From the NCBI GenBank assembly GCA_012267435.1, contig JAAXGM010000039.1, positions 1 through 40,276 on the forward strand: a stretch of 40,276 nucleotides of DNA, in the 5' to 3' direction. The translations under genes were made by a program, and so were the position numbers. The stretch comes from Gemmatimonadota bacterium (GTDB lineage Bacteria > Gemmatimonadota > Gemmatimonadetes > Longimicrobiales > Gaopeijiaceae). Below, in pieces: positions 37,143-40,276 of this stretch. The notes below the pieces were generated by a model. It saw only the letters and a list, made by a program, of their open reading frames with translations. It was not told where the DNA came from and did not search any database. How positions within the stretch are numbered: position 1 is the stretch's first letter; every line of letters starts with the position of its first letter.

Positions 37143-37157
37143 GCTTCGGTCGACGAT

Positions 37158-37454
37158 CTATCCCCCTGCGATGCGGTCCCGCAACGGCTTGCCGGGCTTG
37201 AAATACGCGTACCTCTTCGCCGCGATGGAGATCTTTTCGCCGGTCGCCGGGTTTCTGCCGGTGCGCGCGGCGCGCGACTTGACGCCGAAGCTGCCGAATC
37301 CGGGGACCGTCACCTTGCCTCCCGCGTCGAGTTCGCCGGCGATGATGCCCGATCCGGCGCTTGTGTCGAAGATGCAGTTGAGCACGTCCGCCGCCTTGGC
37401 CTGGGGGAGGTTGGCCCGCTGCGCGAGAGCGGCCGCCATTTCCTTCTTGTTCAT
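37158..37454 (-). CDS. HU-family nucleoid-associated DNA-binding protein
   Basis: The 98-aa protein starts at ATG 37454 (AGGAG about 6 nt upstream); the 281-aa track ORF adds an out-of-frame leader. The HU/IHF fold is clear: MNKKEMAAALAQRANLP (helix-turn-helix dimer core), the conserved VTVPGFGSFGVKSRAARTGRNPATGEKI with the beta-arm GRNP tip, and YAYFKPGKPLRD. It bends and compacts DNA as a dimer. It lies 15 bp upstream of the FeS/NrfD gene with no terminator between them, so it may be the promoter-proximal gene of that operon. Confidence 0.93.
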   Translation of the reverse strand: MNKKEMAAALAQRANLPQAKAADVLNCIFDTSAGSGIIAGELDAGGKVTVPGFGSFGVKSRAARTGRNPATGEKISIAAKRYAYFKPGKPLRDRIAGG

Positions 37455-37715
37455 TACATCTCCTGCGTTGTGGGTGCACCCGACACCGCCGGATGCCCTA
37501 TCCGACGGAACGACAGGGACAGGATACATGGAACGGAGCGATTGCGGAACCTTGAGGAAGCAAACCTCCGTGACGCGATGTCGGCGCGCAAGCGGCGCGG
37601 AGAAGAGGGCGCGGGTTGGGTTGACCCCATCTGGATCCCAGGTTTCCCTTTGACGTACGGGGACCCGCTCGAGGCGGGCAATCCGCATACCGAGACGAAA
37701 AAGAGCGAGGTAGCG
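37455..37715. other. Divergent intergenic region between HU and coiled-coil gene
   Basis: These 261 bp should hold promoters for both flanking genes. Minus-strand TATCCT near 37523-37528, with TTCCGC 17 nt upstream, is a weak HU candidate. Plus-strand TTGACC (37621) and TTGACG (37650) lack a good -10 at the right spacing. CCCGC-TCGAG-GCGGG (37664-37678) is a palindromic hairpin 38-52 nt upstream of the plus-strand gene and could be an operator. Confidence 0.35.
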
Positions 37716-38063
37716 ATGAAGGACAGTTTCGCGATTCAGGAACTTGGCGTCGCGCTGGCCAAGCTCGAACGTCGTGTTGTCACCGGGTTCGATCAACTGA
37801 ACGGACGGATCTCCGCATTGGAATCGAAGCTCGCCACGCGGATCGACGACGTGGAGGCACACGCGGACAAACGGAGCGTCGAGTTCGTGAGCAGGGTCGA
37901 CACGGTGTCGGCCAAGTTCAAGCAGGTTCGATACTCGCTCGACGGGCTGGAGGAGCGCCTTAGCCAAAGGGTCGAGGGATTGGACACCGAAGTCCGGAAA
38001 CAACTCGGCGTTCTACAAGCCGCGGTCGACGCGATCGGCGCGCACTTCGCCGGTTCGAAGTAG
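37716..38063 (+). CDS. Small coiled-coil protein of unknown function
   Basis: ATG 37716, with GAGG 6 nt upstream, gives 115 aa. The supplied 727-aa ORF ending here is a chance extension across the minus-strand genes; only its tail looks like a real protein. The sequence is almost wholly helical and heptad-rich (LAKLERRVVTGFDQLNGRISALESKLATRIDDVEAH, LDGLEERLSQRVEGLDTEV), with no TM and no signal. It would form a rod-like oligomer. Coiled-coil proteins of this kind occur near mobile-element genes, but no family is recognised. Confidence 0.65.
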   Translation: MKDSFAIQELGVALAKLERRVVTGFDQLNGRISALESKLATRIDDVEAHADKRSVEFVSRVDTVSAKFKQVRYSLDGLEERLSQRVEGLDTEVRKQLGVLQAAVDAIGAHFAGSK

Positions 38064-38138
38064 CCAAGGCTTCCTCTCCCGCCCCCTCCATGCCTGGTGT
38101 TGGGCGCGTCGGTCCCGAATGGTGCAAATCCCAAGACA

Positions 38139-38145
38139 TGATAAC
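38139..38145. repeat. TGATAAC copy, left of integrase
   Basis: TGATAAC at 38139-38145 is repeated at 39344-39350, so the two copies flank the integrase gene. At 7 bp this could be chance. It is noted because both copies lie in non-coding DNA next to the recombinase. Confidence 0.2.
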
Positions 38146-38160
38146 GGACAGGATACCAGG

Positions 38161-39312
38161 ATGGAACGACCGAGGAAGCTCAACGCGAGTTTCGTCAAAA
38201 CCGTCCGGCGGCCGGGCCGATACGGGGACGGACGGGGAGGCTACGGACTGTCGCTGCTGGTCAAGCCCACATCGACCGGACGGACGAGCAGGACGTGGGC
38301 GCAGCGCCTGTACATCAACGGCAGGGCCGTGAACCTGGGTCTGGGGGCGTATCCGTTGGTGACGTTGAGGGAGGCGAGGGCCAAGGCGCTTGAGAATCGG
38401 CGAACGCTGGCGCGGGGAATGGACCCCAGGAGCGGCGGCATACCGACGTTCGCGCGAGCCGCCGAGAAAGTGATTGCGATCCACAGGGCGAACTGGAAAC
38501 CGGGTGGCGACACCGAACAGCAGTGGAGGAGCAGCCTGCGCGACTACGTCTACCCGAAAATCGGGCACAAGACGGTGAACAAGATCACGACGACGGACGT
38601 GATGGCCGTCCTGCTGCCGATCTGGAACGAGAAGCGGGTGACGGCGACGCGGGTGCGCAACAGGATTTCGGCGGTGATGAGGTGGGCCGTCGCGAAGGAG
38701 TACCGGGAGGGGAATCCGGCCGGCGACACCATCGCGGCCGCGCTGCCCAGGAACGGGGTTCGAAGGGTCCACCATCGCGCACTGCCTCACGCCCGGGTTG
38801 CGCGGGCGCTGGCCAGAGTGCGCGCGAGCACGTCGCGACCCGTGACGAAACTGGCCTTCGAGTTTCTCGTTCTGACCGCGTCCAGGTCAGGCGAGGTTCG
38901 GAGTGCGAAGTGGGCCGACATCGATGCCGGCGACGCCACATGGACCGTGCCCGGCAAACGCATGAAGATGGGACGCGAGCATCGGGTTCCGTTGTCTTCA
39001 CGTGCTCTCGAAGTGCTCGTCCAGGCGCGCCGTCAATGCAACGGATCCGATCTGGCCTTCCCCTCCCCGTCTGGCCGCAAGCTGACCGGCAACACACTCT
39101 CCCTGCTCTGTCGACGCCTTGAAATCGCAGCCGTTCCGCACGGCTTCCGTTCCTCGTTCCGCGATTGGTGCGCCGAGCGCGGCGTACCCCGCGAGGTCGC
39201 CGAATCCGCGCTCGCGCATGCGGTCAAGGGCGTCGAGGGCGCATACCTGCGGTCCGACCTCTTCGAGCGGCGGCGAAACGTAATGGAAGCATGGGCGGAC
39301 TACGTGCGGTGA
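38161..39312 (+). CDS. Tyrosine recombinase/integrase with DUF4102 arm-binding domain
   Basis: ATG 38161 (AGGA 7 nt upstream) gives 383 aa; ATG 38119 has no SD. The N-terminal ~90 residues match the DUF4102 arm-site DNA-binding domain (KLNASFVKTVRRPGRYGDG, INGRAVNLGLGAYPLVTLREARAKALENR). A SAM-like core-binding domain follows (residues about 95-200). The catalytic domain has R242 (TASRSGEVRSAKW), a probable K in GKRMKMG, H327/R330 (HGFRSSFRDWC), H353 (ALAHAV) and nucleophile Y362 (GAYLRSD), so it appears intact. Members integrate P4-like islands or act as orphan recombinases. No other mobile gene is certain nearby. Confidence 0.93.
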   Translation: MERPRKLNASFVKTVRRPGRYGDGRGGYGLSLLVKPTSTGRTSRTWAQRLYINGRAVNLGLGAYPLVTLREARAKALENRRTLARGMDPRSGGIPTFARAAEKVIAIHRANWKPGGDTEQQWRSSLRDYVYPKIGHKTVNKITTTDVMAVLLPIWNEKRVTATRVRNRISAVMRWAVAKEYREGNPAGDTIAAALPRNGVRRVHHRALPHARVARALARVRASTSRPVTKLAFEFLVLTASRSGEVRSAKWADIDAGDATWTVPGKRMKMGREHRVPLSSRALEVLVQARRQCNGSDLAFPSPSGRKLTGNTLSLLCRRLEIAAVPHGFRSSFRDWCAERGVPREVAESALAHAVKGVEGAYLRSDLFERRRNVMEAWADYVR

Positions 39313-39412
39313 CGAGGGAGGGGTGTCGTGCGCATAACCATAGTGATAACAGCACCGGTTGTGTACTTGTATCATATTGTGATCTTGTGAGTTACGAATA
39401 GTCGGAGCCGGT
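39313..39412. other. AT-rich junction between integrase and repeat-protein gene
   Basis: About 100 bp. The stretch 39331-39400 is about 60% A+T by my count against roughly one third in the surroundings. It contains TGATAAC (39344-39350) and a small imperfect inverted repeat ATCA-TATTG-TGAT. The composition shift right at the integrase 3' end marks a likely recombination junction, or a promoter region. I see no terminator. Confidence 0.45.
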
Positions 39413-40276
39413 GAGTATATCCGCTCCTCGGCGGTGGTCGGCAACGTGGTCGCGGCCGACGCGATGATGAGCGGGGGCGACAGCCAGCCCGAGACGCTGG
39501 TCGGCGTGACGGTCACGCTCGACGGCGAGCACGCCATGGGCGAGACCATGGAGACCGCGGAGGACGGCGGCTTCGCGTTCACGGGGCTGCGGGCCGGCAC
39601 CTACACGGTGACGATCTCCGACTTCCCGGAGGACGTTTCCTTCGAGACGTTGAGCGTCGAGGTCGAGGTCGAGGTGGGCGAGGTCGGCAGCGCCGACTTC
39701 ACGGGCCACTTCATCCGCACCTCGGCGGTCGAGGGCCGGGTGGTGATCGAGGGCGAGGGGCTCGCCGGGGTGACGGTGACCCTGGCCGGCGGACCGGCCG
39801 ACGAGAGCCACACGACGATGACCGACGCCGGCGGCATGTACCGGTTCGAGGAGCTGCGCCCCGGCGACTACACGGTCTCGATTTCGGACTTCGACACCCG
39901 CGACTACGAGTTCGCGGCCACGTCGCAGGACGTGAGCGTGGACCTGGACGAGACCGGAACGGTGTCGTTCACGGGCGTGCTGCTCCGCACCTCCGGCATC
40001 GCCGGCCGGGTGAGCGTGGAGGGCATGGGCCTCGGCGGCGTCGAGGTCACGCTGGCGGGCGGCGACGAGAGCCGCGCGGCGGCGACCGACGCGGGCGGCC
40101 AGTACTCCTTCGCGGGCCTGGCGGCGGGCGACTACACGGTCTCGATCGCGGTCGAGGGCGACGCGTACGTGTTCGAGTCGACGAGCGCGGACGTGACGGT
40201 CGGCGACGACGAGTCGGCGATCGTGAACTTCGAGGGCGCGCATGCGCGCACCGCGAGCGTGTCGGGGATGGCGTTC
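39383..40276 (+). pseudogene. 5'-truncated tandem-repeat (CarboxypepD_reg/SdrD B-like) surface protein, runs off the window
   Basis: The frame opens after a TGA at 39380-39382, has no plausible start codon, and enters a beta-sandwich repeat in mid-unit (GEYIRSSAVVG). Repeats begin near 39419, 39713 (90 aa), 39983 (87 aa) and about 40244. The shared pattern is RTSxxxGRV, GLxGVxVTL, TDAGGxYxF, GDYTVSI and VxFTG. Such prealbumin-like/carboxypeptidase-regulatory repeats occur in large secreted or cell-surface proteins. There is no signal peptide. The ORF is open to the window end, so the total length is unknown. It may be a decayed gene, a silent cassette, or a gene cut by the adjacent recombination event. 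I call it a pseudogene for lack of a start; the right-hand part reads cleanly. Confidence 0.7.

Follow-up and report, generated by a model that had tools for sequence, protein, structure and literature searches.

A probable shufflon-like system, linked to a recombinase, for exchanging the C-terminal part of a large surface lipoprotein in sponge-associated Gemmatimonadota

Programmed DNA rearrangement that varies surface proteins has been described chiefly in pathogens, in gut bacteria and on conjugative plasmids. The G segment of phage Mu encodes a constant N-terminus and two alternative C-termini that face each other in one invertible segment, and its recombinase, Gin, is a serine recombinase that works with an enhancer. 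Campylobacter fetus has one expressed 5' end and several promoterless silent homologues, and inversion puts a new one under the promoter; we know of no dedicated P4-type recombinase beside each silent copy in that species. Xer1 of Mycoplasma agalactiae is Xer-like, and Vpma switching picks which gene of the cluster is expressed.

The locus described here resembles the shufflon of R64/IncI, in which a constant 5' end (pilV) is joined to inverted alternative C-terminal parts and a tyrosine recombinase, Rci, lies at the edge. The sfx site of Rci is short and asymmetric with a 7-bp core (PMC11852207), and Rci is a recombinase of the IntP2 group without an arm-binding domain (PMC8138268). Lipoprotein phase variation by a tyrosine recombinase has been described for Vpma/Xer1 (PMC5634654, PMC2268961), and surface-layer protein variation by inversion in C. 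fetus is named in PMC11852207. Among open full texts, which leave most subscription papers uncovered, no paper on shufflons in sponge symbionts was found.

The window, that is the whole stretch of 40,276 nucleotides analysed here, is the entire contig C121 of a MAG (G000; 236 contigs, 68% complete) and holds no tRNA gene. A sequence-only reading of this DNA had noticed a repeat-protein frame lacking its start just behind an intact tyrosine recombinase, across an AT-rich junction in a GC-rich background. Both observations were confirmed, and the features concerned are:

37151..37552, minus strand: HU gene, with its upstream region the left chromosomal flank
37716..38063, plus strand: small coiled-coil ORF, apolipoprotein-like (Pfam, sub-threshold)
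38119..39312, plus strand: tyrosine recombinase, P4/CP4-like, 383 aa from the ATG at 38161, frame open
38119/38161-39312, plus strand: domains of the recombinase, Arm-DNA-bind_3, Phage_int_M and Phage_integrase (Pfam)
39313..39406, plus strand: AT-rich arm, from the recombinase stop to the core, with conserved GCATAACCATAGTGATAAC ... TGTGATATNGTGAGTTA in an alignment of 13 loci; putative arm-type binding region
39407..39430, plus strand: 24-nt core GCCGGTGAGTATATCCGCTCCTCG, an identical copy of which ends contig C210 in frame with the head; proposed crossover site
39407..40276, plus strand: headless tail, the 5' part (290 codons) of the variable region of a repeat lipoprotein (Pfam repeats; DNA identity to relatives)

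The recombinase carries the three parts of a P4-type integrase (Arm-DNA-bind_3, Phage_int_M and the catalytic domain). PF13356, Arm-DNA-bind_3, covers residues 9-90 with an E of 7e-12, CP4-like integrase domains are matched in PDB, and the match to NCBIfam PRK09692 is sub-threshold. The catalytic set R-K-HxxR-H-Y is complete, and R242, K269, H327, R330, H353 and Y362 are invariant in 11 aligned recombinase sequences. With its arm domain this P4-like enzyme is unlike Rci; it would work like a shufflon recombinase but falls outside the Rci family. Its named relatives come from sponge-associated Gemmatimonadota (BD2-11 clade). The small coiled-coil ORF precedes the recombinase in the window and at several other recombinase loci and may encode an accessory factor; in other species, e.g. 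G001, the recombinase locus is collinear with the whole of 37617-40276.

About 12-13 recombinases of this superfamily were scored in each genome of the same genus, an unusually large set. Solitary stretches of the arm-binding domain, in open frames of about 205 aa, were also seen (G002:C305, G002:C284 and G004:C58); they match the N-terminal 94-99 residues of the recombinase at 90-94% identity.

GC content is 41% in 39331-39406 compared with 70% for the window, and only one of 4,020 sampled 76-nt windows was as low. The headless ORF starts 95 nt after the recombinase. An in-frame TGA ends at 39382, the frame is then open to the contig end, where the tail runs off, and its first ATG, GTG or TTG is a GTG at 39434, already within the repeat. 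The ORF has three CarboxypepD_reg / SdrD_B / SpaA-like beta-sandwich matches (Pfam); its DNA is as much as 92% identical to tails that relatives carry in full length, and its dN/dS against intact and headless relatives is 0.18-0.29. The core sits in the inter-repeat protein motif AGEYIRSS. Its form in relatives is an imperfect inverted repeat (CCGGA / 7 bp / TCCGG, best seen in G007) which resembles a tyrosine-recombinase site, and the 7-bp centre is shared with sfx.

A search of the genome, which the sequence-only reading had recommended, located the missing 5' end on a second contig of this MAG, C210. The end of this contig reads ATG - MNRFTKFTVAALVAVLTFTAC - first repeat - core GCCGGTGAGTATATCCGCTCCTCG, where MNRFTKFTVAALVAVLTFTAC is a signal peptide with a lipobox-like FTAC, and a Shine-Dalgarno-like GAGGGAG lies upstream of the ATG. 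The last 24 nt of C210 are identical to 39407-39430, and they set the head in the reading frame of the window ORF. Just 5' of the core the two sequences diverge, the shared homology beginning exactly at 39407 and not at 39313. No further core copy was found in the G000 genome beyond those of C121 and C210 when up to 3 mismatches were allowed. As in a shufflon, a constant and expressible 5' part thus ends in the proposed crossover site.

The arrangement recurs across the genus. We took as a clade the window recombinase and those 83-92% identical to it, all of the same genus. In all 12 full-length members the order is recombinase, AT-rich arm, core and headless tail, with core and tail about 93-150 nt past the recombinase stop, so that the site-specific recombinase expected beside a shufflon adjoins every one of these tails. 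At a 13th locus (G005:C27) a decayed recombinase lies beside a headless tail, and recurrence of the junction at 13 loci is more than chance would give. Four loci (G002:C165, G004:C37, G008:C116 and G010:C51) have the junction one repeat unit further on, at the corresponding site. Downstream of recombinases 50-66% identical, from the same and other phyla, no headless repeat gene was found. In several genomes the head and recombinase versions of the core overlap are not the same (in G009, for example, GAGTATA versus GAGTACA). The genus is represented by MAGs throughout, which their contig names mark as mostly short-read, and loci of this type are the ones that such assemblies resolve least well.

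The geometry in G000 was approached through its neighbours. The HU gene is directly followed by tRNA-Val in four relatives (G002, G004, G007 and G010). In G000 HU adjoins the recombinase module (37617 onward), and tRNA-Val lies beside the head on C210, a contig that also bears the gene found beyond tRNA-Val in relatives. This split suggests, as the simplest explanation, that the head copy of the core faces the recombinase copy.

A further contig, C166 (14,872 bp), bears the C-terminal 985 aa of one tail at its start and the inverted C-terminal 1,015 aa of another at its end, and the stretch between them holds an FN3-protein gene and Rpn/YhgA-like genes. The two C-termini are 75% identical overall. 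Both contig ends begin at the same homologous base, where 196 of 200 nt are identical, which looks like the sign of a collapsed inverted repeat whose shared N-parts were merged by the assembler. The bin lacks the roughly 390 nt (query residues 442 to 571) that separate the end of the window from those of C166; the N-parts of these convergent tails and their joins to C121 and C210 lie outside the assembly, and this picture comes from one genome. We infer that C121, C166 and C210 are adjacent, in which case C166 and two N-parts of ~1.27 kb each would make an invertible segment of about 17 kb. In the other genomes searched no inverted tail pair was found on one contig. Contigs of SPAdes-named bins end at core +55, +61 and +67, a hint of graph branches at core +0, +6 and +12 if k is assumed to be 55.

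Some other observations concern the same region. The Rpn/YhgA-like (Transposase_31) genes within the proposed segment occur in both orientations (L233 3339-4373, 9040-10143 and 10647-11453). The tRNA-Val beside HU is split after the anticodon loop in G001, G003, G005, G006, G008 and G009, and the HU/tRNA-Val site (window 37552-37617; L069, L070, L200, L201, L202, L205) is a hot spot of other integrative elements. An SDR gene at this site shows 98-100% identity between species that share ~93% identity at their HU loci. Attachment of the recombinase module to tRNA-Val was considered and rejected, since the G000 tRNA on C210 is complete; no duplicate of the tRNA-Val 3' end was seen at 37560-37617.

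We are inclined to conclude that the locus is probably a shufflon-like, recombinase-linked system for C-terminal exchange of a large surface lipoprotein. The layout of such a system is well supported; it suggests that switching takes place in living populations and that this recombinase catalyses the exchange. The order in G000 would be HU - coiled-coil ORF - recombinase - arm - core - tail A ... tail B (inverted) - core - head - tRNA-Val. An expressible head, complete with Shine-Dalgarno, ATG, signal peptide with lipobox and the first repeat, would be provided by the C210 locus alone, and the recombinase locus would carry an alternative tail, headless but intact. The recombinase would bind the arm and the two cores, with strand exchange in the 7-bp centre. 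Recombination of the inverted cores would flip about 17 kb, and the head would gain the other tail and its downstream genes, so that the ~1,450-residue variable part of the surface lipoprotein would be swapped. Since the arm would stay beside the recombinase and on that side only, both sites would keep their type after exchange and the reaction would be reversible.

This arrangement would differ from R64 in its ~17 kb segment, its ~1,450-aa tails with partner genes, its chromosomal location and the arm on the recombinase side only. Several points count against this reading. P4-type integrases normally mobilise elements and do not invert segments; the convergent tails were seen in G000 only, whose MAG is 68% complete, and no contig spans head to recombinase. 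The differing core overlaps noted above weigh on the same side, as do the unchanged tails of G004 and G010 and the long continuations of the G003 and G009 head loci described below. The earlier suggestion of a silent cassette that can be joined to an expressed 5' end agrees in its layout with an expressible head, an identical 24-nt core, intact copies in relatives and convergent tails in G000 that fit an invertible segment, and the switching it called for is a deduction from that layout.

Head-bearing intact copies are present in most genomes, elsewhere than at the recombinase loci, and behind them lie genes for an FN3-domain protein (F1), an LRR-domain protein (F6) or both. The headless tails are open for 1,261 to more than 1,700 codons in the copies readable far in, and dN/dS is 0.47-0.54 for headless pairs versus 0.40-0.49 for intact pairs; by this measure headless tails appear constrained like intact ones and not simply broken genes. 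The first ~400 tail residues are ~90% identical and the C-terminal halves are hypervariable (30-40% identity). A tail tree built on the first 830 nt is weakly resolved, and the only groupings it shows are the pairing of tails within G005 and pairs of orthologues in G003/G009. The recombinase-linked tail of C27 and the head-linked tail of C133 in G005 are mutual closest relatives over these 830 nt (support 99/95), as expected from exchange or conversion.

The recombinase locus with the flank F10-F9-F8 is orthologous in seven genomes and differs on its right side, with a unit-1 tail and FN3 partner in G001 and a unit-2 tail and LRR partner in G004 and G010; the change of tail falls at the core. 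The near-identical strains G004 and G010 have the same tails at the loci compared. The intact head loci of G003 and G009 continue into 44-120 kb of other DNA, and exchange there would require very large inversions or is historical. Apart from this, G004:C55 (L095 16836-18157) shows a 3'-truncated LRR partner gene F6 with a further recombinase of the superfamily (51% identical) directly behind it.

One pair of contigs was considered as direct proof of tail exchange and rejected. G135:C25 (L108) and G004:C10 (L087) have 100% identical upstream DNA and different tails; the switch falls 32-114 nt upstream of the core and not at it, and misassembly is possible. G135:C25 lies in a bin of another family and is a probable case of contamination plus recombination or misassembly.

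The strongest competitor, which we hold to be unlikely, is that the headless tails are a silent archive and that exchange proceeds mainly by homologous recombination or gene conversion through the near-identical N-parts of the tails, the recombinase being just a neighbour. The 196 of 200 identical nt at the C166 breaks would suffice for homologous recombination, and the switch upstream of the core in the G135 pair, if not a misassembly, is of the kind it would leave. For the exchange itself, homologous recombination via the same inverted repeats is a real alternative. It leaves unexplained, however, why the same arm and core stand at the boundary in 12/12 clade recombinases and why the boundary of four loci lies at the homologous site of the next repeat unit.

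Insertion of an element was judged improbable. The headless copies would then be unused relics of a recombinase-bearing element that inserted site-specifically into the lipoprotein gene, the head being later lost or carried away, much as the sequence-only reading had proposed when it supposed that an integration event cut the 5' end. The core is at a fixed position in the gene, as an attachment site would be, and the decayed recombinase of G005:C27 beside its headless tail is what a relic might look like. However, an integrated element should be flanked by the halves of its target as direct repeats, and no head running into element or other DNA was found in 11 genomes; insertion into the gene was rejected on this ground. 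Every head found in G003, G004, G009 and G010, the genomes where each can be read into its tail, continues into a tail despite five recombinase-tail junctions. As these four have no orphan head, simple gene disruption is unlikely. The constraint on the open headless tails speaks against relics as well, and the left flank in G000 is core chromosome (dcw cluster, HU) and not element. A mobile island spanning the window was also rejected, because the 37 kb upstream are core chromosome (dcw cluster, recG, HU).

A chimeric contig joining a recombinase to a headless gene by faulty assembly or binning would suit a set made entirely of MAGs, in which multicopy genes break assemblies and contigs stop near the core in several bins, and is nonetheless very hard to credit given that junction and conserved 90-nt arm recur across the genus in differently named assemblies (NODE, k141) and that several contigs extend several kb past the junction.

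Returning to recombinase-linked exchange, a wider version of it can be put forward tentatively, with somewhat less confidence than an even chance. A domesticated P4-type integrase would serve several heads and tails per genome in sponge-associated Gemmatimonadota, with crossover at the inter-repeat motif (unit 1/2), altering variant, repeat number and FN3/LRR partner. The layout of constant N-terminus and alternative C-termini is also that of the Mu G segment and Gin, from which the locus differs in its tyrosine recombinase and lipoprotein. Like Vpma/Xer1 it links a site-specific recombinase to a variable surface lipoprotein family, unlike Vpma the break lies inside the coding sequence and most of the protein would be swapped. 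With C. fetus it would share one expressed 5' end and silent homologues joined by inversion.

Short-read assemblies break at loci of this kind, so comparable systems may go unnoticed in MAGs. If the proposal is true, a P4-type integrase has been turned from element mobility to gene shuffling, and uncultured sponge symbionts use programmed DNA rearrangement to vary a large surface lipoprotein. The lipoprotein may act in host or phage interaction, and the system would then offer a testable link of symbiont surface variation to life inside an animal or to phage attack.
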